Positions 1 through 7,503 of a DNA stretch of 14,190 nucleotides are shown here, one piece after another (position 1 is the first letter of the stretch; every line of letters starts with the position of its first letter). The position numbers and the translations under genes are program-made. The notes under the pieces were generated by a model. The model made no database searches. It saw nothing but the letters and a program-made list of their open reading frames with translations, and had not been told where the DNA came from. The DNA comes from Nitrospirae bacterium CG2_30_53_67 (GTDB lineage: Bacteria > CG2-30-53-67): assembly GCA_001873285.1 (NCBI GenBank), contig MNYV01000145.1, positions 1 through 14,190 on the forward strand. Direction: 5' to 3'.

Positions 1-24
1 AGGCTCTGTGAATGACCATGTGAA

Positions 25-57
25 GAGCCGTGTGCGTAAATAGCGCACGCACGGTTC
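25..57 (+). ncRNA. Group II intron domain V hairpin
   Basis: A 33-nt hairpin has the group II intron domain V layout. GAGCCGTG (25-32) pairs with CACGGTTC (50-57), including one G-T pair. The AGC triad lies at 26-28. TGCG (33-36) pairs with CGCA (44-47), and a two-base CG bulge (48-49) separates the two helices on the 3' side. The terminal loop TAAATAG is not a GNRA tetraloop, so this copy is slightly off consensus. Domain V is the catalytic core of these self-splicing retroelements. The intron body and any reverse transcriptase would lie upstream of the window, so only the 3' end is visible. The hairpin is seen directly; the intron assignment rests on the known domain V pattern. Confidence 0.75.
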
Positions 58-178
58 TGTGAGGGGCCGGGGTCAACGGATGTATGGTTGAGATCTTGTG
101 GCACCGCCGGGAAACCAGGCGGAAACAGAGAAGACAAACATCAACCTACAGCATCTGGAGTAACCGGTCTACTCGACC
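58..178 (+). ncRNA. Probable group II intron domain VI and 3' end, expanded
   Basis: Downstream of domain V, GGCCGG (65-70) can pair with CCGGTC (164-169), followed by CTACTCGACC, a sequence typical of the 3' ends of related bacterial introns. The roughly 90 nt between the arms contain two further nested stems: GGTTGA (86-91) with TCAACC (141-146), and CCGCC (104-108) with GGCGG (118-122). This makes an unusually long, multi-stem domain VI, or a normal domain VI that has acquired an insert. I have not located the bulged branch-point adenosine, and the exact 3' splice site (about 170-178) is unresolved. The pairing is observed; the domain assignment is inferred. Confidence 0.45.
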
Positions 179-205
179 ACTACACAAAGTGCAATGTGTA
201 GGTCT

Positions 206-292
206 GACCCCAAAGCCACATTGAGAGTTACACCCGCTATGGAAGCGGGATTGACTGACCACGTATGGAAATGGGATGAAATTTTAAATTAG
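206..292 (+). pseudogene. Transposase C-terminal remnant
   Basis: The frame ending in TAG at 290-292 reads DPKATLRVTPAMEAGL followed by TDHVW. A 'TLRVTPAMEAGLTDHVW' ending is what I recognise from the C-termini of IS1-like or DDE transposases (the 'HKTLRVTPAMAAG..DHVW' type). Nothing upstream in the frame looks like the catalytic core: it runs into the intron 3' end and meets a TAA at 161-163. Only about 28 codons survive, so this is a scrap left by an insertion sequence, perhaps cut by the intron. The family assignment is from memory and tentative. Confidence 0.45.
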
Positions 293-295
293 GAC

Positions 296-392
296 ACTAC
301 CCATTTCTTGGTAATGGGGTATTTTGGAATAATTTGGTATAGTTTGGGTTAAATGTAATTAATATTTAAATAGTAGACTTTGGATTTATTTT
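296..392. other. AT-rich leader between remnant and first gene
   Basis: This non-coding stretch is strongly AT-rich. It contains a small stem, ACCCATT (298-304) against AATGGGGT, with no convincing U-tract after it. No SD-like sequence precedes the ATG at 393, and I see no promoter close to consensus. It may hold a weak AT-rich promoter for the gene at 393. Confidence 0.3.
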
Positions 393-1373
393 ATGTTAAA
401 TATGAATATATCTTTCTTTAATCAACCCAATGGCAATGATATGCACAAGAACGCTACGTTTCAAATATCCTATGACGGTGAAGCCGTAGAAGATGGGACT
501 ATCGATGTCCGTGAATTGGCTCCGTCTTTGCTTGCTTTGGGAGATTTAATTGATGAGACAAACAGGCATATTACGCAGGGCAGAATGGAGGTATCTCTTC
601 GTGTAAGTGCTGACATTGAACGAGGTTCATTTCTCGTCAGATTGGAAATAGCGACAAAGTTTTATGAGAAATTTGTTGAAATCTTCAGCGGCCCTGATGC
701 AACAGCAATAACTACATTTCTTACTCTCTTGGGAATTTCCGGAGCATATGGAATATTCCAGCTTGTTAAAGATAGCAAGGGAGCAAAACCAAAGAATGTA
801 ATCAAAATCAGTCAGACCACTAAAGTAAAACTGGAGTTTGATAATATAGAACCGATTGAGGTTGAGAAAGACGTATATGATATATACAATAATTTTAGAG
901 CAAGAAGTGCTATATCGCGTATTGTCAGACCTTTGAAAGATAAGGGTATTGATGTACTCAAATTTATTCATGGTGGTCGAGAGACAATCAAGGTAACAGA
1001 AAGTGAAATTGAATGTTTCAGGGTGCCGGAAGAAAGAGAGGGTGAAAGAATCTCGGAATCTGAAATTGTTCTTCGAATCCTAAATTTAGCATTTCAAAAA
1101 GGCAATAAATGGAAAGTGACTGATGGTAGCGGGAAATACTTTGTATCTATATCGGACATTATTTTTTTAAAAAAGATTGAAGATAGACAAATATTGTTTG
1201 GTAAAAATGATTGTTTGCGTGTAAGATTACAAACACGGCAGTGGTATGAAAATAAAGAACTAAAATCAAGTCATGAAATTATAGAGGTACTTGAACACAT
1301 ACCCGCCTCTGATCCATCACAAATGTCATTATTAGAAGAAAACACAGACGCAGACGACAATGGAGAGCGTTGA
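393..1373 (+). CDS. Hypothetical protein of an accessory-island family
   Basis: This 326-residue protein has no function I can name. Residues 20-60 read like the start of an uncharacterised mobile-element family, with the order 'F-I-YDGEA....DVRELAPSLLALGDLIDETNR'. A beta-rich stretch follows (65-90). One hydrophobic glycine-containing segment (about 103-125, ending GAYGIFQLV) could be a single membrane-inserted or buried helix. The rest is charged and soluble, ending in an acidic tail. There is no signal peptide and no catalytic motif I recognise. The start is uncertain: ATG 393, ATG 402 and ATG 441 all lack an SD. It is the only plus-strand gene in the AT-rich island and converges on the HEPN-ParA operon. 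Low GC relative to the genes beyond 4 kb suggests horizontal acquisition. That the ORF is a real gene is likely; a role in defence or mobile-element biology is only a guess. Confidence 0.8.
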   Translation: MLNMNISFFNQPNGNDMHKNATFQISYDGEAVEDGTIDVRELAPSLLALGDLIDETNRHITQGRMEVSLRVSADIERGSFLVRLEIATKFYEKFVEIFSGPDATAITTFLTLLGISGAYGIFQLVKDSKGAKPKNVIKISQTTKVKLEFDNIEPIEVEKDVYDIYNNFRARSAISRIVRPLKDKGIDVLKFIHGGRETIKVTESEIECFRVPEEREGERISESEIVLRILNLAFQKGNKWKVTDGSGKYFVSISDIIFLKKIEDRQILFGKNDCLRVRLQTRQWYENKELKSSHEIIEVLEHIPASDPSQMSLLEENTDADDNGER

Positions 1374-1589
1374 GGGTCGAATCTTTCATCTTGACAACTT
1401 CTTCTCCTCTACGAGCCATCGGCAAACGGCCAATCAACACCGATGAGTCTAACAATGATATACCGCTCCAGAATATCGCATTCTCAATGGCCGGGTCAAA
1501 GTAATAAACCTTCAAACGCAAACCAGATCTGTTTGTCAATTTAAAAGATGTGACCCTCTCGCCCCTCCCCGGCTTTTCCCGTGGTATGA
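1374..1589. other. Convergent intergenic gap, nothing clear
   Basis: The gap lies between two converging genes. I see no clear terminator. A minus-strand frame starting at a TTG (1602) stays open across the whole gap to 1279. It could be a gene scrap, but it begins inside the HEPN gene, ends inside the upstream gene, and carries no motif I recognise, so I do not call it. Confidence 0.3.
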
Positions 1590-2192
1590 CTAAACAACCC
1601 AAGCGTGAATGTGTTCACATAACTTTTCGATGAACGTAGCAGCATTCTCCACGTCACTATGAGAAATCGGCCAATAAGTTCCTGGGTAACTTGGGTCCAA
1701 ATCAGCTTCGTGCGCAATTATATTACGACGTTCAACAATTAAACGAAGATGGATTTTTACATCGTGAACAGACAATCCAAATTTGGAAGCGACTGAAGGC
1801 CAAAGTTCGCAGGATGAAAATAGTCGGATGGCATCAGCGATTCTATCAGGGTGCTGGAAGGCAAGGAAACTGTGTTTTTCTCTGATTTCTTGTTCAAACC
1901 AAGAGCTATCACCAGGTATCCCTAAGCCTATCATTGCTGAATCTATGGTAACTTGAAAGCGGCGGAAAGAACTTGTAGCTGGTCTTAATCCATTAAAAAC
2001 TTCAAGCATACCAAGACGCGTAATCTCATGAACGTAATGGTCAAGAGCACTAACAGTCAGTACTATTTGTGAACGCAGAATGTCAGACGCATCGACAATA
2101 GGCGTTGTCAACCGAGTGAGTGACATATAAAGCCCCCCGAGGCTACGCACACGCTCAATATTTGACCGGAATTGTTGAATTGCTTTATGCAT
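1590..2192 (-). CDS. HEPN-domain protein (RiboL-PSP-HEPN-like)
   Basis: This 200-residue all-helical protein carries the HEPN signature. A predicted helix contains 'SALDHYVHEITRLG' (about residues 48-61), and a later helix has 'ERRNIIAHEAD', giving the R-N-x3-H motif. HEPN domains of this class are typically metal-independent RNases in toxin-antitoxin, abortive-infection and RNA-processing systems, with the Arg and His as catalytic residues. The first in-frame start is a TTG at 2198. I prefer the ATG at 2192, which overlaps the stop of the ParA-like gene by 8 nt. No SD is visible, so translation is probably coupled to the ATPase gene. The pairing suggests the ATPase controls or localises the HEPN protein. 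The HEPN call rests on motif recognition; the toxin role is inferred. A non-nuclease, nucleotide- or protein-binding HEPN remains possible. Confidence 0.7.
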   Translation of the reverse strand: MHKAIQQFRSNIERVRSLGGLYMSLTRLTTPIVDASDILRSQIVLTVSALDHYVHEITRLGMLEVFNGLRPATSSFRRFQVTIDSAMIGLGIPGDSSWFEQEIREKHSFLAFQHPDRIADAIRLFSSCELWPSVASKFGLSVHDVKIHLRLIVERRNIIAHEADLDPSYPGTYWPISHSDVENAATFIEKLCEHIHAWVV

Positions 2193-3234
2193 TGTCAATT
2201 ATAGTAATAATGCGATCGGCCCCCTCTGAGAATAGTTTGAGAAACCGCTTCATAGATTTTTTTGTTATCTCTAAAACTACTCCTCTTTGCTCAAGCTGTT
2301 TATCTGTCAAGTCAAAAATTGGTGCTTTATGCTTCTGTGAAAGAGCAATTAGACTATTGAAATCTGACATTTGGATCAAAGGCTTTGTTGGCTGCACCCC
2401 GGCGTTTTTATATATTCTATCAGTAAGAAGCATACCATTTTCTTTTAGAACCGGAACAAGCCTTGTTTTTACACCTATTTCAATTTCATCTATCCATTTT
2501 TGAAAGGCTGCAGAAGGCGTCTTCCCACCTCTTAACCGATATTTCTGAATTATAGTACCGAGAAATTTGGGATTTTTATCAGGGTATGGATATGTTGCTT
2601 TTTGAAGTACAGATTGTGATTTCGCCTGCCTCGACCAACCGGCCCACTTTGGCAATATAGACGCAAGACTATCCGTCGCCATTACTGAAAAATAATCCGG
2701 TGCCATAGGGATAATGAAATAATCACTTGTCATTAACAAGTTCTGGTTTATTGGTCCAAGGCTTGGACTCATATCAATAAGGATAATGTCAGCGTTATAT
2801 TTTTCAGCGGTAATATTGAATAAATGACGGAGCGATCCTGGCAAATTCTGGAGCGTGACTAAGGAACCCGACAATTCCTGAGCTATACCCAATGTTACTT
2901 CGTATTCCGCAAGCCCAATGTGCCCCGGTAGTAAGAGCATATTTGCCTGCCCTTTTATTTTTTCGCATATGACAGGTTCAATAGCTGTCGGCCGAGATTC
3001 AAAAGCTGGTGCTAATCCATCGCGAATGTTTCGTATCCCTTTTGCTTTATAAATCGCGTCAAATTCTTCTGATTTCTTGAATCCTAAAACCATTCCCGTG
3101 AGGTTACATTGTGGGTCGCAATCAACGATGATAACCTTCTTGCCTTTTCTTGCTAACATCCAACCCAAATTAAAGGTTGATGTGGTTTTGCTTACTCCAC
3201 CTTTGTGATTAAAGAGTGCAATTTGATTTGTCAT
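2185..3234 (-). CDS. ParA/MinD-type P-loop ATPase
   Basis: This 349-residue SIMIBI-class ATPase has the deviant Walker A 'FNHKGGVSKTT' near its N-terminus (signature lysine plus catalytic lysine), a 'VIIVDCDPQCNLT' segment, and Walker B 'IILIDMSPSLG'. Such proteins dimerise on ATP, often on DNA or membranes, and partition plasmids or position complexes. The C-terminal part (about 215-349) is longer than in a minimal ParA and has a charged helical region 'QWEQRGVV'-like (LEQRGVVLEITKK). The frame is open to 3264, but I choose the ATG at 3234 because GGAG lies 6 nt upstream and the Walker A then sits at the usual N-terminal place. No ParB gene is present. The partner is the overlapping HEPN gene instead, which argues against simple plasmid partition. 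AT-rich composition marks it as part of the accessory island. Confidence 0.85.
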   Translation of the reverse strand: MTNQIALFNHKGGVSKTTSTFNLGWMLARKGKKVIIVDCDPQCNLTGMVLGFKKSEEFDAIYKAKGIRNIRDGLAPAFESRPTAIEPVICEKIKGQANMLLLPGHIGLAEYEVTLGIAQELSGSLVTLQNLPGSLRHLFNITAEKYNADIILIDMSPSLGPINQNLLMTSDYFIIPMAPDYFSVMATDSLASILPKWAGWSRQAKSQSVLQKATYPYPDKNPKFLGTIIQKYRLRGGKTPSAAFQKWIDEIEIGVKTRLVPVLKENGMLLTDRIYKNAGVQPTKPLIQMSDFNSLIALSQKHKAPIFDLTDKQLEQRGVVLEITKKSMKRFLKLFSEGADRIITIIDNA

Positions 3235-3308
3235 GTAATTCTCCAGTGTTTGTTGAAAAAACATTTTATGATTCGCCGAACAGTGATTAGACTGATCCGC
3301 ATAGCATG

Positions 3309-3323
3309 TCTACGACTCGTAGA
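3309..3323. promoter_or_regulatory. Perfect dyad upstream of the ParA-like gene
   Basis: TCTACGA-C-TCGTAGA is a perfect inverted repeat with 7-bp arms and a one-base centre. It lies about 75 bp upstream of the ATPase start, where an operator or a centromere-like site would be expected. I could not identify a convincing -35/-10 pair next to it. A role in autoregulation by the ATPase or its partner is inference from position. Confidence 0.35.
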
Positions 3324-3378
3324 GCGGAACGCCGGTTTCTGATCCATGTCGCACGCCGTTGAAATTGGGGATCGTCGT

Positions 3379-3966
3379 TCACTTTCTTTTTTGTGCGCTT
3401 CTGACCTCAAGGCGTTTGTTATAGAGCCGTTCGGTGAAGCCGCCCTCTTTTAAAAAACGTTCCTCCAACTGTCGAAGCTGCTGATCAAGCAGGTAGTTCG
3501 CCTGGTGGATCAGGCAAATCAGTGTGTTGGCTGCCACATCAGGGGCTTCAGCTTCAATATAGGTCCTATAGGTCGCATAGGACCTATTTTGACAATGCGC
3601 GAGCTTCCGCACAGTCCGCGCCCTCGGGTGCTCCTTTCCCCAAAGCAACAGTCCTCGCTGGCGCAGAAAGTCCTCGCAGTCAAGCAACAGCTCTTCAAGA
3701 CTCGCCCGCGCCACGCCCACCAGCTTCAGCTCGGTCTTGCGCGATGTACCCGAGGCCATACTCCCCTCGGCAATGTTCTGCTTGCCGCTCCGCGCCGCTT
3801 GCACCATCTGGTCACGGGTACGCGAACCGTGGTCGATGAATCGATTACAAAACGCCACCGCCGCATCATAGATGATCTCCGCCATCTGATACGATTTCAG
3901 GTTACGGTAACCGCCATGGGCCTCGATGAGCTTTGCTTTTGGGTTTTGTTTTTTTATATAGGTCAT
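3379..3966 (-). CDS. Four-helix-bundle suffix domain protein (23S IVP/S23 relative)
   Basis: This 195-residue protein resembles the four-helix-bundle family first seen as proteins encoded in 23S rRNA intervening sequences. The hallmark helix 'MVQAARSGKQNIAEGSMASG' lies at about residues 54-73, followed by 'SLEELLLDCEDFLRQRGL' and a long C-terminal helical region (about 140-185) that matches the 'suffix' variant. Related bundles include the accessory subunit (Avd) of diversity-generating retroelements, but no reverse transcriptase or variable repeat is present in this window. The ATG at 3966 is preceded at 5 nt by AGGA, which is itself part of the 9-bp repeats that overlap the start. A second repeat block encodes the 'YATYRTYIE' segment in mid-protein. 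GC content is higher than in the neighbouring island genes. The molecular function of the family is not established. Confidence 0.8.
   Translation of the reverse strand: MTYIKKQNPKAKLIEAHGGYRNLKSYQMAEIIYDAAVAFCNRFIDHGSRTRDQMVQAARSGKQNIAEGSMASGTSRKTELKLVGVARASLEELLLDCEDFLRQRGLLLWGKEHPRARTVRKLAHCQNRSYATYRTYIEAEAPDVAANTLICLIHQANYLLDQQLRQLEERFLKEGGFTERLYNKRLEVRSAQKRK
3558..3587. repeat. Internal 9-bp tandem repeat, ATAGGACCT type
   Basis: On the minus strand, 9-bp units such as TATGCGACC and TATAGGACC follow one another and encode the tripeptide-like Y-A-T / Y-R-T series. Each unit also contains near-palindromic AGGACCT or AGGTCCT cores. The unit matches the repeat at the start of the same gene (3955-3986), about 400 bp away. 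Because 9 is a multiple of 3, expansion or contraction keeps the frame. Confidence 0.7.
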
Positions 3967-4059: not shown

Positions 4060-6660
4060 TTATGCGCATTTTGAGTAACCGCAGGCGAGGCATTTCAGAC
4101 ACCCCTCGGACCGTTCCATGCTCCCGGAAGCCCCACAGTCAGGGCAGGTATCGGCAGTGATGGAGAGAAGATCCACCTCGGTGTGTATGCCGTTTTTCCC
4201 GTTCTTTTTCATATACCGCCGCTCCAGGATCCGGGCGATGGCGTCGGGGATGGAACGGACCAGACCGTCCTTCTGGAAGATCGGGTGTTCCCCGCCGATC
4301 CCCTTGAGCTGTTCCACGATCTTTTCCACCGGAACCCCGTACCGGAGCGAAAGAGACACGAGGCGTCCGATGGCCTCGGTCTTCGCCATGGTGCTTTGTC
4401 CCGACTTCCCGATGGTGGCGAAGACCTCGAAGGGCTTCCCATCCAGTTCGTTGACGGTGATATAGAGGGTCCCATGGGCCAGCTTCATCTTGGCCGTGAA
4501 TCCGTCCAGGATCTCGGGCCTGGGAAGAAACGTTTCTACCGCGGTCCTGGCTCCCGCAATCGGCTGAGCCTTCACTTCTTCCCTGGGCATCACGAGTTCG
4601 GCCGGTTCGACAGCGGGCTTGGCCCCGTTGCCGTTTTTCTTGTCATCCTGTTTCAGGTTCAGGACCTGCTCGCCCTTACTCCCGTCCCGGTAGATGGTGA
4701 CCCCCTTGCATCCGCTCTCATAGGCCCGGAGGTAGACCTCTTCCACATCCTTGATCGTGGCATGATGCGGGAAGTTCACGGTCTTGCTCACGGCATTGTC
4801 CGTATATTTCTGGAATGCGGCCTGCATGAGGATGTGGAACGAAGGGGGCACGTCATGCGCGGTCACAAAGATCTCCCGCACATCCTGGGGGATCTCGGTC
4901 ATCCCCTGGATGCTTCCGGTTCGGGCGATCTTCTCCATCAGTTCATCGGAATAAAATCCGCGGCGCTTGGCCTCCTGCTGAAAGGCGTGATTAACCTCGA
5001 TCAGCTTGTCATGGTCCATGACATTGCGGTAGTAGGAGAGGGCGAAGATCGGTTCGATTCCCGATGACGTGTTGGCGATGATGGAGAGGGTCCCGGTGGG
5101 GGCGATGGTCGTGGTGGTGGCGTTTCGCACCCTCGGCATCCCTTCCCGGTCATAGATGCTCCCCTTGAAGTTGGGAAAGACACCCCGTTTTTCAGCCAGG
5201 TCCGCGGAGGCGGCCCGGGCCTCGGTCTGGATGAAGGACATGACTTTTTCCGCGGTCTTGATGGCCGCCTCGGAATTGTAGGGGGTCCGGAGGGCGATCA
5301 GCATATCGGCCCATCCCATGACGCCGAGGCCGATCTTCCGGTTTCCCTGCGCCATCTCGGTGATCTTCTTCAGAGGGAATCTGGACATGTCGATGACATT
5401 GTCCAGGAAGTTGACCGAGGTCCAGACCACCCTTTTAAGGCGATCATAATCCGCCACGGGCGTCCCATGTTCGGTCTTGACCATCCTGGCCAGGTTGATG
5501 GACCCGAGATTGCAGGCCTCGTAGGGGAGAAGGGGCTGCTCACCGCATGGGTTAGTGCACTCGATCTCTCCGAGCTGGGGCGTGGGGTTGTCCCGGTTCA
5601 GCCGGTCCAGAAAGACGATCCCCGGATCTCCGCTCTGCCAGGCCAGATTGACGATCTCGTCGAAGATCTTTTTTGCGCTCAGGGTTCCTGTGATCTCTCT
5701 GGTGCAGGGGTCGATGAGCTCACAGTCCGACCCGGATTGAACCGCCTTCATGAATGCTTCGGTGATTCCCACAGAGAGGTTGAAATTATTGAGACTCCCA
5801 TCGTGCTTCTTGGCATGGATGAATTCGAGGATGTCCGGATGGTCCACGCGGAGGATCCCCATGTTGGCCCCGCGGCGGGTCCCTCCCTGTTTGACCTGCT
5901 CCGTGGCCGTATTGAAGATCCGCATGAACGAAACGGGCCCTGAGGCGACGCCCCCTGTGGTACCGACCTTGGAGTTCTTCCGCCTTATATTGGAAAACGA
6001 AAACCCGGTCCCCCCGCCGGACTTATGAATCAGGGCCGCATGTTTCAGGGAATCAAAGATTCCTTCCATGGAATCATCCACAGGAAGGACAAAACATGCG
6101 GAAAGCTGCTGCAGTTCACGGCCTGCATTCATCAGGGTCGGGGAGTTGGGAAGGAACTCCAGTTCGGTCATCAACCGGTAGAAGAGTCTTGCCTTTTCCG
6201 GCACGTTGGCCTTCTTGTCATAGATCTTCTCGGGCTCCGCGATGTTCTTGGCCACACGGAGGAACATGTCACGTGGTTCCTCGATCGGTTTCCCCTGATC
6301 GTCTTTTTTCAGGTACCTCCGCTCAAGGACCTTGATGGCGTTCGGATAGAGAGTCAGCTTCTCCTCCTTGGCTTTGGGCACGGGGAAGACCAATGGAGGC
6401 ATGCGTTTGATTCCGTATTTCAGCAGTTTGGCCTCGATCAGTTTCTGCATGACCGCATGCGGAACGGACTTTCCGTTCATCCGGCAGAATTCCTGCTCGA
6501 TATCCCGGCTGATCATGGCCGCCATCTCCTCGTTGCCATGATTTTCAAGTAGAAGGGCCTGCATGAAGTGGTCGCGGTTCCAGGATAAGACAGGAATCAG
6601 ATCCAATCCGTCCTGGTTTTGAACTTCTCCGCCCATCCCCATGGCTTCTTTCATAACCAT
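4060..6660 (-). CDS. nrdJ: Adenosylcobalamin-dependent (class II) ribonucleotide reductase, long form
   Basis: This protein reduces ribonucleotides to deoxyribonucleotides with a thiyl radical generated from coenzyme B12, so it works with or without oxygen. Numbering here is from the longest frame (GTG at 6666, 868 aa). An N-terminal helical, ATP-cone-like region spans about 25-90, and the catalytic barrel about 105-670. The first redox cysteine is C191 (LSACFV). The NPCGE motif gives N372, radical C374 and E376, with C385 as the other redox cysteine. The glycine-rich 'HKSGGGTGFSFS' and 'APTGTLSII' stretches contribute to substrate and phosphate binding. A TSCPD domain (about 720-815) and a terminal zinc-ribbon or redox tail with CPDC and CLKC-x-C pairs (841-867) complete the long form. 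I choose the ATG at 6660 because AGGGGG lies 5 nt upstream; from the GTG at 6666 that spacing would be too short. The gene has its own promoter with NrdR-like boxes. Confidence 0.95.
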   Translation of the reverse strand: MVMKEAMGMGGEVQNQDGLDLIPVLSWNRDHFMQALLLENHGNEEMAAMISRDIEQEFCRMNGKSVPHAVMQKLIEAKLLKYGIKRMPPLVFPVPKAKEEKLTLYPNAIKVLERRYLKKDDQGKPIEEPRDMFLRVAKNIAEPEKIYDKKANVPEKARLFYRLMTELEFLPNSPTLMNAGRELQQLSACFVLPVDDSMEGIFDSLKHAALIHKSGGGTGFSFSNIRRKNSKVGTTGGVASGPVSFMRIFNTATEQVKQGGTRRGANMGILRVDHPDILEFIHAKKHDGSLNNFNLSVGITEAFMKAVQSGSDCELIDPCTREITGTLSAKKIFDEIVNLAWQSGDPGIVFLDRLNRDNPTPQLGEIECTNPCGEQPLLPYEACNLGSINLARMVKTEHGTPVADYDRLKRVVWTSVNFLDNVIDMSRFPLKKITEMAQGNRKIGLGVMGWADMLIALRTPYNSEAAIKTAEKVMSFIQTEARAASADLAEKRGVFPNFKGSIYDREGMPRVRNATTTTIAPTGTLSIIANTSSGIEPIFALSYYRNVMDHDKLIEVNHAFQQEAKRRGFYSDELMEKIARTGSIQGMTEIPQDVREIFVTAHDVPPSFHILMQAAFQKYTDNAVSKTVNFPHHATIKDVEEVYLRAYESGCKGVTIYRDGSKGEQVLNLKQDDKKNGNGAKPAVEPAELVMPREEVKAQPIAGARTAVETFLPRPEILDGFTAKMKLAHGTLYITVNELDGKPFEVFATIGKSGQSTMAKTEAIGRLVSLSLRYGVPVEKIVEQLKGIGGEHPIFQKDGLVRSIPDAIARILERRYMKKNGKNGIHTEVDLLSITADTCPDCGASGSMERSEGCLKCLACGYSKCA

Positions 6661-6686
6661 TTCCACCCCCTCAATGACTTCTTATT

Positions 6687-6740
6687 TATTCCACAGGATC
6701 GCCTCAAAATGCACACAGGATATTCACAGCATCTTCACAG
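6687..6740. promoter_or_regulatory. Phased CACAG repeats in the nrdJ leader, DnaA-box-like
   Basis: On the plus strand CACAG occurs at 6692, 6714, 6725 and 6736, so successive copies are 22, 11 and 11 bp apart: the same face of the helix. ATATTCACA, ending at 6728, differs by one base from the DnaA box TTATNCACA, and the others are weaker (about 7 of 9). DnaA is known to bind the control regions of reductase genes in E. coli and B. subtilis. Binding here is inferred. Confidence 0.4.
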
Positions 6741-6743
6741 AAA

Positions 6744-6759
6744 TCGCATCATGTTGTAT
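6744..6759 (-). promoter_or_regulatory. Candidate NrdR box 2
   Basis: On the minus strand ATACAACATGATGCGA matches the core of the NrdR consensus (CwAtATaTwG) at about 7 of 10 positions. It starts exactly 32 bp from candidate box 1, which is the three-turn spacing known for paired NrdR boxes. It lies just downstream of the expected transcription start. Confidence 0.45.
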
Positions 6760-6769
6760 ATGGCTGACC

Positions 6770-6797
6770 AATATACTACAATACTTAGTGATGTCAA
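6770..6797 (-). promoter_or_regulatory. Sigma-70 promoter of the long nrdJ
   Basis: On the minus strand, TTGACA (6792-6797, perfect -35) and TATATT (6770-6775, -10) are separated by 16 bp. The predicted start is near 6762, which leaves a leader of about 100 nt. The spacer is exactly NrdR-like box 1, so a bound repressor would block RNA polymerase. The leader is too short for a cobalamin riboswitch. Confidence 0.7.
6776..6791 (-). promoter_or_regulatory. Candidate NrdR box 1
   Basis: On the minus strand TCACTAAGTATTGTAG fits the NrdR consensus core CwAtATaTwG at 8 of 10 positions. It fills the whole spacer between the -35 and -10 elements. NrdR is the dATP/ATP-sensing zinc-finger repressor of bacterial ribonucleotide reductase genes. 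No nrdR gene lies in this window. Confidence 0.5.
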
Positions 6798-6866
6798 GAA
6801 AAAAGTGGGGTGTGAAAACAGAAAAAATTGGGGCCGGTGAAAGGTCGCCGGTCATGGGTCAGTCAA

Positions 6867-6964
6867 TGGCGGGAGGGGGCGGGAATCGAACCCACCAGGC
6901 GGGGTATTAAGCCGCCCCACCGGATTTGAAGTCCGGGCCGGACACCAGCACCGAATCCCCTCCC
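6867..6964 (-). tRNA. selC: Selenocysteine tRNA (tRNA-Sec, anticodon UCA)
   Basis: This tRNA inserts selenocysteine at recoded UGA codons, working with SelA, SelB and SelD. The 98-nt span on the minus strand includes an encoded CCA (6867-6869) and the discriminator G. The acceptor stem is 8 bp (GGGAGGGG, 6957-6964, with its complement at 6871-6878), and together with the 5-bp T stem it gives the bacterial 8+5 architecture. The anticodon loop CTTCAAA (6925-6931) holds TCA (6927-6929) on the stem CCGGA/TCCGG. A long variable arm follows, with GGCGG pairing to CCGCC. The T loop is TTCGATT. No selenoprotein with an in-frame TGA is evident in the window, so the partner genes lie elsewhere. Confidence 0.95.
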
Positions 6965-6973
6965 GTAAAATCA

Positions 6974-7022
6974 AACTCTAAACTCTAATATCTAAACTCT
7001 AAACAAAATCAAAATTCCAAAC
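6974..7022. repeat. AT-rich repeat, downstream arm around the four-helix-bundle gene
   Basis: This tract of CTCTAAA-type units contains TCTAAACTCTAAACAA (6991-7006), an exact reverse complement of 7426-7441. It also contains a 17-mer at 7006-7022 that matches the reverse complement of 7395-7411 with one mismatch. The gene at 7060 lies between the arms, so the unit looks like an inserted intervening-sequence-type element. Confidence 0.65.
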
Positions 7023-7059
7023 ACAAATGTTCCAAACCATTCTGAACTTTTTGCCTTCT

Positions 7060-7497
7060 CTACTTTGTTTTTTCCAGGATGGCTCCAAAAATCTTCATAA
7101 GCTCGGTGGCTTCCTGAATTAGATAGTGATTTGTTTTCTCAGTTTCTTTATTACAATCGACAAGTTTTAACCAATAACGAGTCTCTTTTGCTTCCTTTCG
7201 GCAGATCTTCACCCTCATTATAAAATCTTTTTTACTTAATGACTCATTAGCCTCAATATAATTCGCTCCCACCGACCCTGCCGATCTCACCAATTGTTTT
7301 ATGACTTCATTATTGGTCAACGTCTTCGGCAATTCATTTACGAACTCAATAGTTCGCCTTGCATAATTCAGAGTCCGTTCCTCTAGATCATATCGTTTTG
7401 AATTTTGATTTTCTGTCATTCGATATTGTTTAGAGTTTAGAATTTCGTATTTAGGATTTGAACCCATATCAGTGAGAATATATATTTTCTCAATCAT
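7060..7497 (-). CDS. Four-helix-bundle protein (23S rRNA IVP family)
   Basis: This 145-residue protein has the typical family order: an N-terminal low-complexity lead-in, 'LEERTLNYARRTIEFVNELP' (about 38-57), the signature 'RSAGSVGANYIEAN' and 'KEAKETRYWLKLV' (about 100-112). The fold is a four-helix bundle that forms pentamers in studied relatives; its cellular role is unknown. The ATG at 7497 has AGGTG 7 nt upstream and lies 6 nt past the Nudix stop, so translation may be coupled. The family-typical start, however, is probably the ATG of 'MTENQNSKRYD' (residue 27). The first 26 codons are built largely from the flanking AT-rich repeat. That suggests the element landed behind the Nudix gene and borrowed its signals. 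Low GC, unlike its neighbours. Confidence 0.85.
   Translation of the reverse strand: MIEKIYILTDMGSNPKYEILNSKQYRMTENQNSKRYDLEERTLNYARRTIEFVNELPKTLTNNEVIKQLVRSAGSVGANYIEANESLSKKDFIMRVKICRKEAKETRYWLKLVDCNKETEKTNHYLIQEATELMKIFGAILEKTK
7395..7441. repeat. AT-rich repeat, upstream arm inside the four-helix-bundle gene
   Basis: This arm is the inverted partner of 6991-7022: 7426-7441 is an exact 16-nt reverse complement of 6991-7006, and 7395-7411 matches 7006-7022 at 16 of 17 positions. It encodes the N-terminal 'NSKQYRMTENQNSK' region, so one arm is translated. Confidence 0.65.
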
Positions 7498-7503
7498 GGG
7501 GAA

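Follow-up and report, generated by a model that had tools for sequence, protein, structure and literature searches.

The window analyzed here, a 14,190-nucleotide stretch of contig MNYV01000145.1 from Nitrospirae bacterium CG2_30_53_67, carries two overlapping genes on its minus strand. The upstream gene (positions 3234 to 2185, stop included) encodes a ParA/Soj-type ATPase of 349 amino acids; its likely start codon is the ATG at 3234, the longest open reading frame (ORF) beginning at 3264. The downstream gene (2192 to 1590) encodes a 200-amino-acid protein of the RiboL-PSP-HEPN family, a predicted RNase effector. An earlier note on this DNA had described a ParA-type ATPase gene and a HEPN gene overlapping by 8 nt, and both ORFs and the overlap were confirmed. 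The overlap (ATGCATAA, 2185 to 2192) spans the stop codon of the ATPase gene and the start of the HEPN gene, with the HEPN ATG lying within the final ATPase codons, an arrangement that suggests translational coupling. Together with a short leader 5' of the ATPase gene (3235 to 3282, minus strand), the two genes make up a mobile unit at 1588 to 3282. No ParB-like ORF was found beside the pair and no parS-like or centromere-like repeat array was found at 1370 to 3800, in agreement with the earlier statement that the ATPase has no ParB partner.

The GC content is 38 to 43% over positions 1 to 3500 and mostly 53 to 62% past 3500, falling to 35% at 7001 to 7500. Part of a group II intron (23 to 177, plus strand; Rfam RF00029, 44.4 bits) lies right where the contig begins. 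The pair had been placed in an AT-rich island beside intron and IS debris; the base composition and the intron bear this out, but IS debris was not confirmed, as the next ORF (3379 to 3966, minus strand) looks instead like a four-helix 23S-rRNA-IVP-like protein, under Pfam's cut-off. A second four-helix protein of the 23S-rRNA-intervening-sequence type, this one over Pfam's cut-off, is encoded at 7060 to 7497 (minus strand). Convergent with the pair and within the same AT-rich island is a gene for a 326-amino-acid LAPAL family protein (393 to 1373, plus strand; NF053583, 8.5e-73), which also matches the PADLOC candidate PDC-S42 (2e-81) and phrog_3243. Further along, a selenocysteine tRNA gene (6871 to 6964, minus strand; RF01852, 73.9 bits) lies between ORFs of 868 and 587 amino acids, which by eye resemble paralogous B12-dependent ribonucleotide reductases.

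Sequence and structure of the two proteins

The ATPase matches Pfam AAA_31 over its cut-off (1.2e-31) and contains a deviant Walker A motif, KGGVSKT (KGGVSKTT). In alignments, the Walker A lysines and key aspartates are invariant or nearly so. Its AlphaFold2 (AF2) model (pLDDT 92.1) matches Soj/ParA and the PDB entry 3pg5, which was also the closest entry in a PDB profile search, matching over nearly the full length (3e-38). This nearest solved relative, DIP2308 of C. diphtheriae, is an uncharacterised protein. The extended C-terminal part pointed out in the earlier note is present when Soj is the reference (349 versus about 250 amino acids), though its final helix and the [SLI-Q-PVF-L] motif recur across the wider ParA-like superfamily, solo members included. 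Using NCBIfam, no equivalog scored over its cut-off for either protein. In PADLOC-DB 2.0, the ATPase matched only a short Walker A stretch of PDC-M28B and no listed system over most of its length, and the HEPN protein had no match.

The HEPN protein matches Pfam HEPN_RiboL-PSP (PF18735) at 3e-11, with 44 bits against a curated cut-off of 28.4. The R-N-x3-H motif reported earlier is intact and reads R-N-I-I-A-H (R155 R156 N157 xxx H161). Residues invariant in 22 aligned HEPN sequences include R40, D51, H55, W131, R155, R156, I159, H161 and D164. Among the 25 HEPN proteins readable through the motif, R and H are invariant and N is present in 24; in that of L066 (4200 to 4823) the motif reads RRHKIVH, with H in place of N and with R and the final H retained. 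The top VIA matches of the HEPN AF2 model (pLDDT 94.6) are HEPN proteins, including HepT of HepT/MntA; their Z scores of 8 to 10 are modest for a helical protein, and the sequence profile and the motif agree with this fold match. Foldseek gave no match with E below 0.001 for the model, and HEPN proteins came first only in the VIA ranking. The protein is a predicted RNase with an intact predicted active site.

Distribution, co-inheritance and mobility of the pair

Genome contigs, plasmids, phage records and IMG/VR were scanned, and 26 distinct loci were identified in which an ATPase of the same type has a HEPN gene directly downstream. The spacing between the two genes ranges from -17 to +23 nt and is exactly -8 nt in 9 of the 26 pairs. 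In a maximum-likelihood tree, the HEPN-linked ATPases form a single clade (starred), in which a HEPN gene directly follows the ATPase gene in 26 of 30 rows. The other four comprise two with a different downstream gene of 171 to 310 amino acids (L024 and L092), one that is truncated (L089) and one that is solo (L093); the 310-amino-acid product in L024 has an RNxxxH motif of its own. No HEPN gene of any kind accompanies the truncated or frameshifted ATPases of L089 and L147, although the numbers are small. The distance matrices of the ATPases and HEPN proteins correlate with an r of 0.88, a value inflated by related sequences; none of 5,000 permutations reached it, the best being 0.33, and no partner swap was evident. 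The two proteins share ancestry and are co-inherited.

The proposal that the two genes form a joint system had been left to depend on whether homologous ATPases are linked to HEPN genes and whether R and H are conserved among orthologs. The linkage in 26 of the 30 clade members and the invariance of both residues in all 25 readable HEPN proteins leave a joint ATPase-HEPN system well supported. The link to the ATPase is specific to the HEPN subfamily of the pair: a survey of 28 other RiboL-PSP-HEPN loci, in 365 genomes, revealed no ParA-type Walker A less than about 1.5 kb away from any of them. Similarly, no ParA was found at the four MAE_28990-type (PF18737) loci surveyed, which adjoin a gene of 360 to 397 amino acids that is DUF262-like by eye.

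Evidence for movement of the pair comes from a locus in a MAG of another group (L003), to which positions 1588 to 3281 (1.69 kb, containing the two genes only) are 88.5% identical at the nucleotide level. No alignment to L003 was found outside this interval, and the flanks are unrelated. Position 1588 is two bases beyond the HEPN stop codon, and the homology with a close relative (L006) ends at 3282, on the other side of the unit. Phage carriers include the filamentous Pf1 and WX-TY and one Mu-like phage, and the pair also occurs on further IMG/VR contigs, in MAGs and on plasmids of Burkholderia. The emphasis on phages is owed in part to the viral collections being searched. In the Mu-like phage the pair sits between the virion morphogenesis and Mu-like I protease genes, in Burkholderia glumae it is found on conjugative plasmids, and in MAGs its neighbors are a DNA methylase gene at L003 and a MazE-PIN pair at L005. 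The pair is rare among the cellular genomes sampled, because in three phylum samples, each with about 400 genomes, the close ATPase family was met only in the respective center genome; the first and third samples comprise largely the same genomes. The pair is therefore stable as well as co-inherited and mobile, and the predicted active sites of both proteins are intact.

The Pf1 record (AY324828) annotates the ParA-like gene only. Its HEPN frame (L007, 9741 to 10268) stops at 175 amino acids, just past RNSIVH, with a continuation in another frame, which may reflect either a real truncation or an error in the record.

ATPase relatives without this HEPN

About 40 ATPases, about 36 to 40% identical and with the N- and C-terminal motifs in common, form a sister group whose members are solo. 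These occur in dsDNA prophages, where cI or XRE repressor genes adjoin them in the annotated cases (ST160; E. coli), as well as in a Helicobacter prophage and Pantoea plasmids. At L014, L018 and L011, for example, a solo ParA-like ATPase gene is located by a cI or XRE regulator in the lysogeny region of E. coli or P22-like Salmonella prophages. One solo form is present in 109 of 5,426 complete E. coli genomes at a coverage of at least 80%. HEPN remnants beside the solo prophage ATPases were no more frequent than expected by chance. As about 40 sister ATPases have neither a HEPN gene nor a remnant nearby, the ATPase is likely to have a HEPN-independent role too.

At six loci (L012 at 4992 to 6910, L027 to L030, and L053), a SIR2 gene directly follows the gene of a more distantly related ParA-like ATPase (about 30% identity, KGGVGK); these loci are on a Salmonella plasmid, on viral contigs and in one genome, and the SIR2 protein of L012 is ThsA-like by PADLOC. 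At two further loci, L026 (4001 to 6946) and L045, the gene of a distant ParA-like ATPase overlaps one for a protein of 224 to 228 amino acids, which in L026 has no Pfam or PDB sequence match, and this pair is possibly a further ParA-gated module. A 344-amino-acid gene that is RelA/SpoT-like by eye comes next in L026. Other distant ParA-like ATPases are encoded directly 5' of methylase or helicase genes.

Proposed function and relation to known systems

On balance, we consider it probable that the two genes form a mobile conflict module, in the style of a toxin-antitoxin or abortive-infection system, with the ATPase gating a HEPN RNase. The RNase activity, its inhibition and the trigger are what we infer from the proteins and their arrangement. 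The ParA-type ATPase would be translated first from a shared message, with the start of HEPN translation coupled to it by the overlap, and would bind the HEPN protein and hold it inactive in one nucleotide state. Perturbation of the ATPase by a superinfecting phage or by loss of the element would then free the HEPN protein, which as a ribonuclease would cut RNA, perhaps tRNA (a guess from other HEPN toxins), and halt translation. The beneficiary would be the phage, plasmid or genomic island bearing the pair. The known roles of ParA-family ATPases lie in the movement of DNA and cell parts; control of an RNase toxin by a ParA-type switch would, if true, be a new job for the ParA fold.

An antitoxin role for the ATPase is favored because the regulator comes first, the genes overlap, carriage is mobile and HEPN is absent beside the broken ATPases of L089 and L147, as would be expected if the ATPase protects. 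Counted against the module are the sister ATPases that occur without HEPN and the Pf1 HEPN frame that is cut after the motif. In addition, the ATPase-first gene order cannot separate an inhibitor from an activator. A serious rival is that the ATPase is a sensor, which would polymerise or dimerise with ATP on incoming DNA or on a protein of a phage and so turn on a HEPN protein that is harmless alone, a logic in line with other defense pairs of sensor ATPase and effector. What makes it serious is that more distant ATPases of the superfamily pair with other effectors, namely SIR2 and the 224- to 228-amino-acid protein, while L024 combines its ATPase with the 310-amino-acid RNxxxH protein; one ATPase type with swapped effectors resembles sensor-effector modules. 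However, a two-gene overlap with an upstream regulator is just as typical of toxin-antitoxin pairs, and the two broken ATPases with no adjoining HEPN, small as that number is, fit an inhibitor, so that we regard activation as possible rather than probable.

The module could also do nothing more than stabilize its carrier through post-segregational killing, with no anti-phage role. Its toxin-antitoxin-like architecture and mobile carriers suit such addiction, and Pf prophages commonly carry parDE toxin-antitoxin operons as cargo (PMC7549136), but a cargo position inside phage structural operons fits phage-phage competition at least equally, and we hold pure addiction to be somewhat unlikely. 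A partition or positioning function, with the ATPase placing the element and a noncatalytic HEPN protein serving as an adaptor instead of ParB, draws on the ParA/Soj fold and profile of the ATPase and on the plasmid-borne pairs. It is contradicted by the invariant catalytic residues of HEPN and by the missing ParB and parS-like repeats, and some pairs have locations that require no partition, namely integrating phages, the interval between Mu-like structural genes, and chromosomes; a partition system was accordingly set aside as improbable. An extension of the gated-RNase module to the KGGVSK-type ParA ATPases, as a dedicated control clade of phage conflict modules in which one branch gates HEPN and the solo prophage branch serves as an orphan antitoxin or immunity factor against such modules, with more distant ParA-like ATPases gating SIR2 and other effectors in a similar way, is speculative and in our judgment unlikely.

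The earlier note knew of no characterised system of this composition, but the composition is not new. In the passages of Anantharaman et al. (2013; PMC3710099) that concern it, the pairing of a ParA/Soj-like ATPase with a HEPN protein of the MAE_18760 family, one of the less common dyads, is predicted to be a toxin-antitoxin system, with the ATPase as the antitoxin acting via a nucleotide-dependent change or phosphorylation. The gene pair and the predicted logic are thus alike. The HEPN of that dyad is filed under MAE_18760, whereas the one studied here falls into a different though related Pfam family, being over the cut-off for PF18735 and not for PF18737 (MAE_28990/MAE_18760), a profile that gave a sub-threshold E of 0.13 for the HEPN of L003 and no match for P0001; the two may nevertheless be one family under different names. 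Phage carriage and clade structure, which are described here, are not named in those passages, and the solo prophage sister clade and the ATPases paired with SIR2 or other proteins are likewise new. No experimental study of the ParA-HEPN pair was found in the literature searched, which excluded subscription papers, and within it the 2013 prediction has apparently stood untested for over a decade. The value of the finding lies in the phage carriage, the clade structure and testability: the question can be addressed directly because Pf1, which serves as a model filamentous phage, carries the pair, as do phage and plasmid loci small enough to clone with ease, and the solo prophage sister clade offers a second, cheap handle on the ATPase.

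Among other known systems, HEPN-MNT (HepT-MntA, type VII toxin-antitoxin) is alike in being a two-gene HEPN RNase module with an R-x4-6-H motif, and in the fold match to HepT, but its partner is a nucleotidyltransferase (MNT) and not an upstream AAA_31/ParA-type ATPase. ParABS partition has a deviant Walker ParA ATPase in common with the pair, which differs in having a HEPN partner, a longer ATPase C-terminal part and neither ParB nor parS-like repeats. A region of Gifsy-1 in S. Typhimurium 14028s (STM14_3218-3220), in which a ParA-like gene has two small genes downstream of it, is needed for an RNA-damage signal (RtcR activation) and lowers phage titer (Kurasz et al. 2023; PMC9879122). A Gifsy-like IMG/VR contig (L180) was taken to represent this locus, as its products of 279 and 220 amino acids match the lengths of STM14_3218 and STM14_3220. 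PDB entry 9oij (HepS of Gifsy-1) was considered as the HEPN protein of the locus and rejected, since the third gene of L180 had no PDB sequence match; the fold match of our HEPN model to HepS (Z of 6.0) is weak for a helical bundle. Because the L180 ATPase is distant (26% identity over 195 amino acids to the one in the window) and the 220-amino-acid product of the third gene has no match to the HEPN profile, the Gifsy-1 locus is regarded as an analogue and a lead, not as a member.
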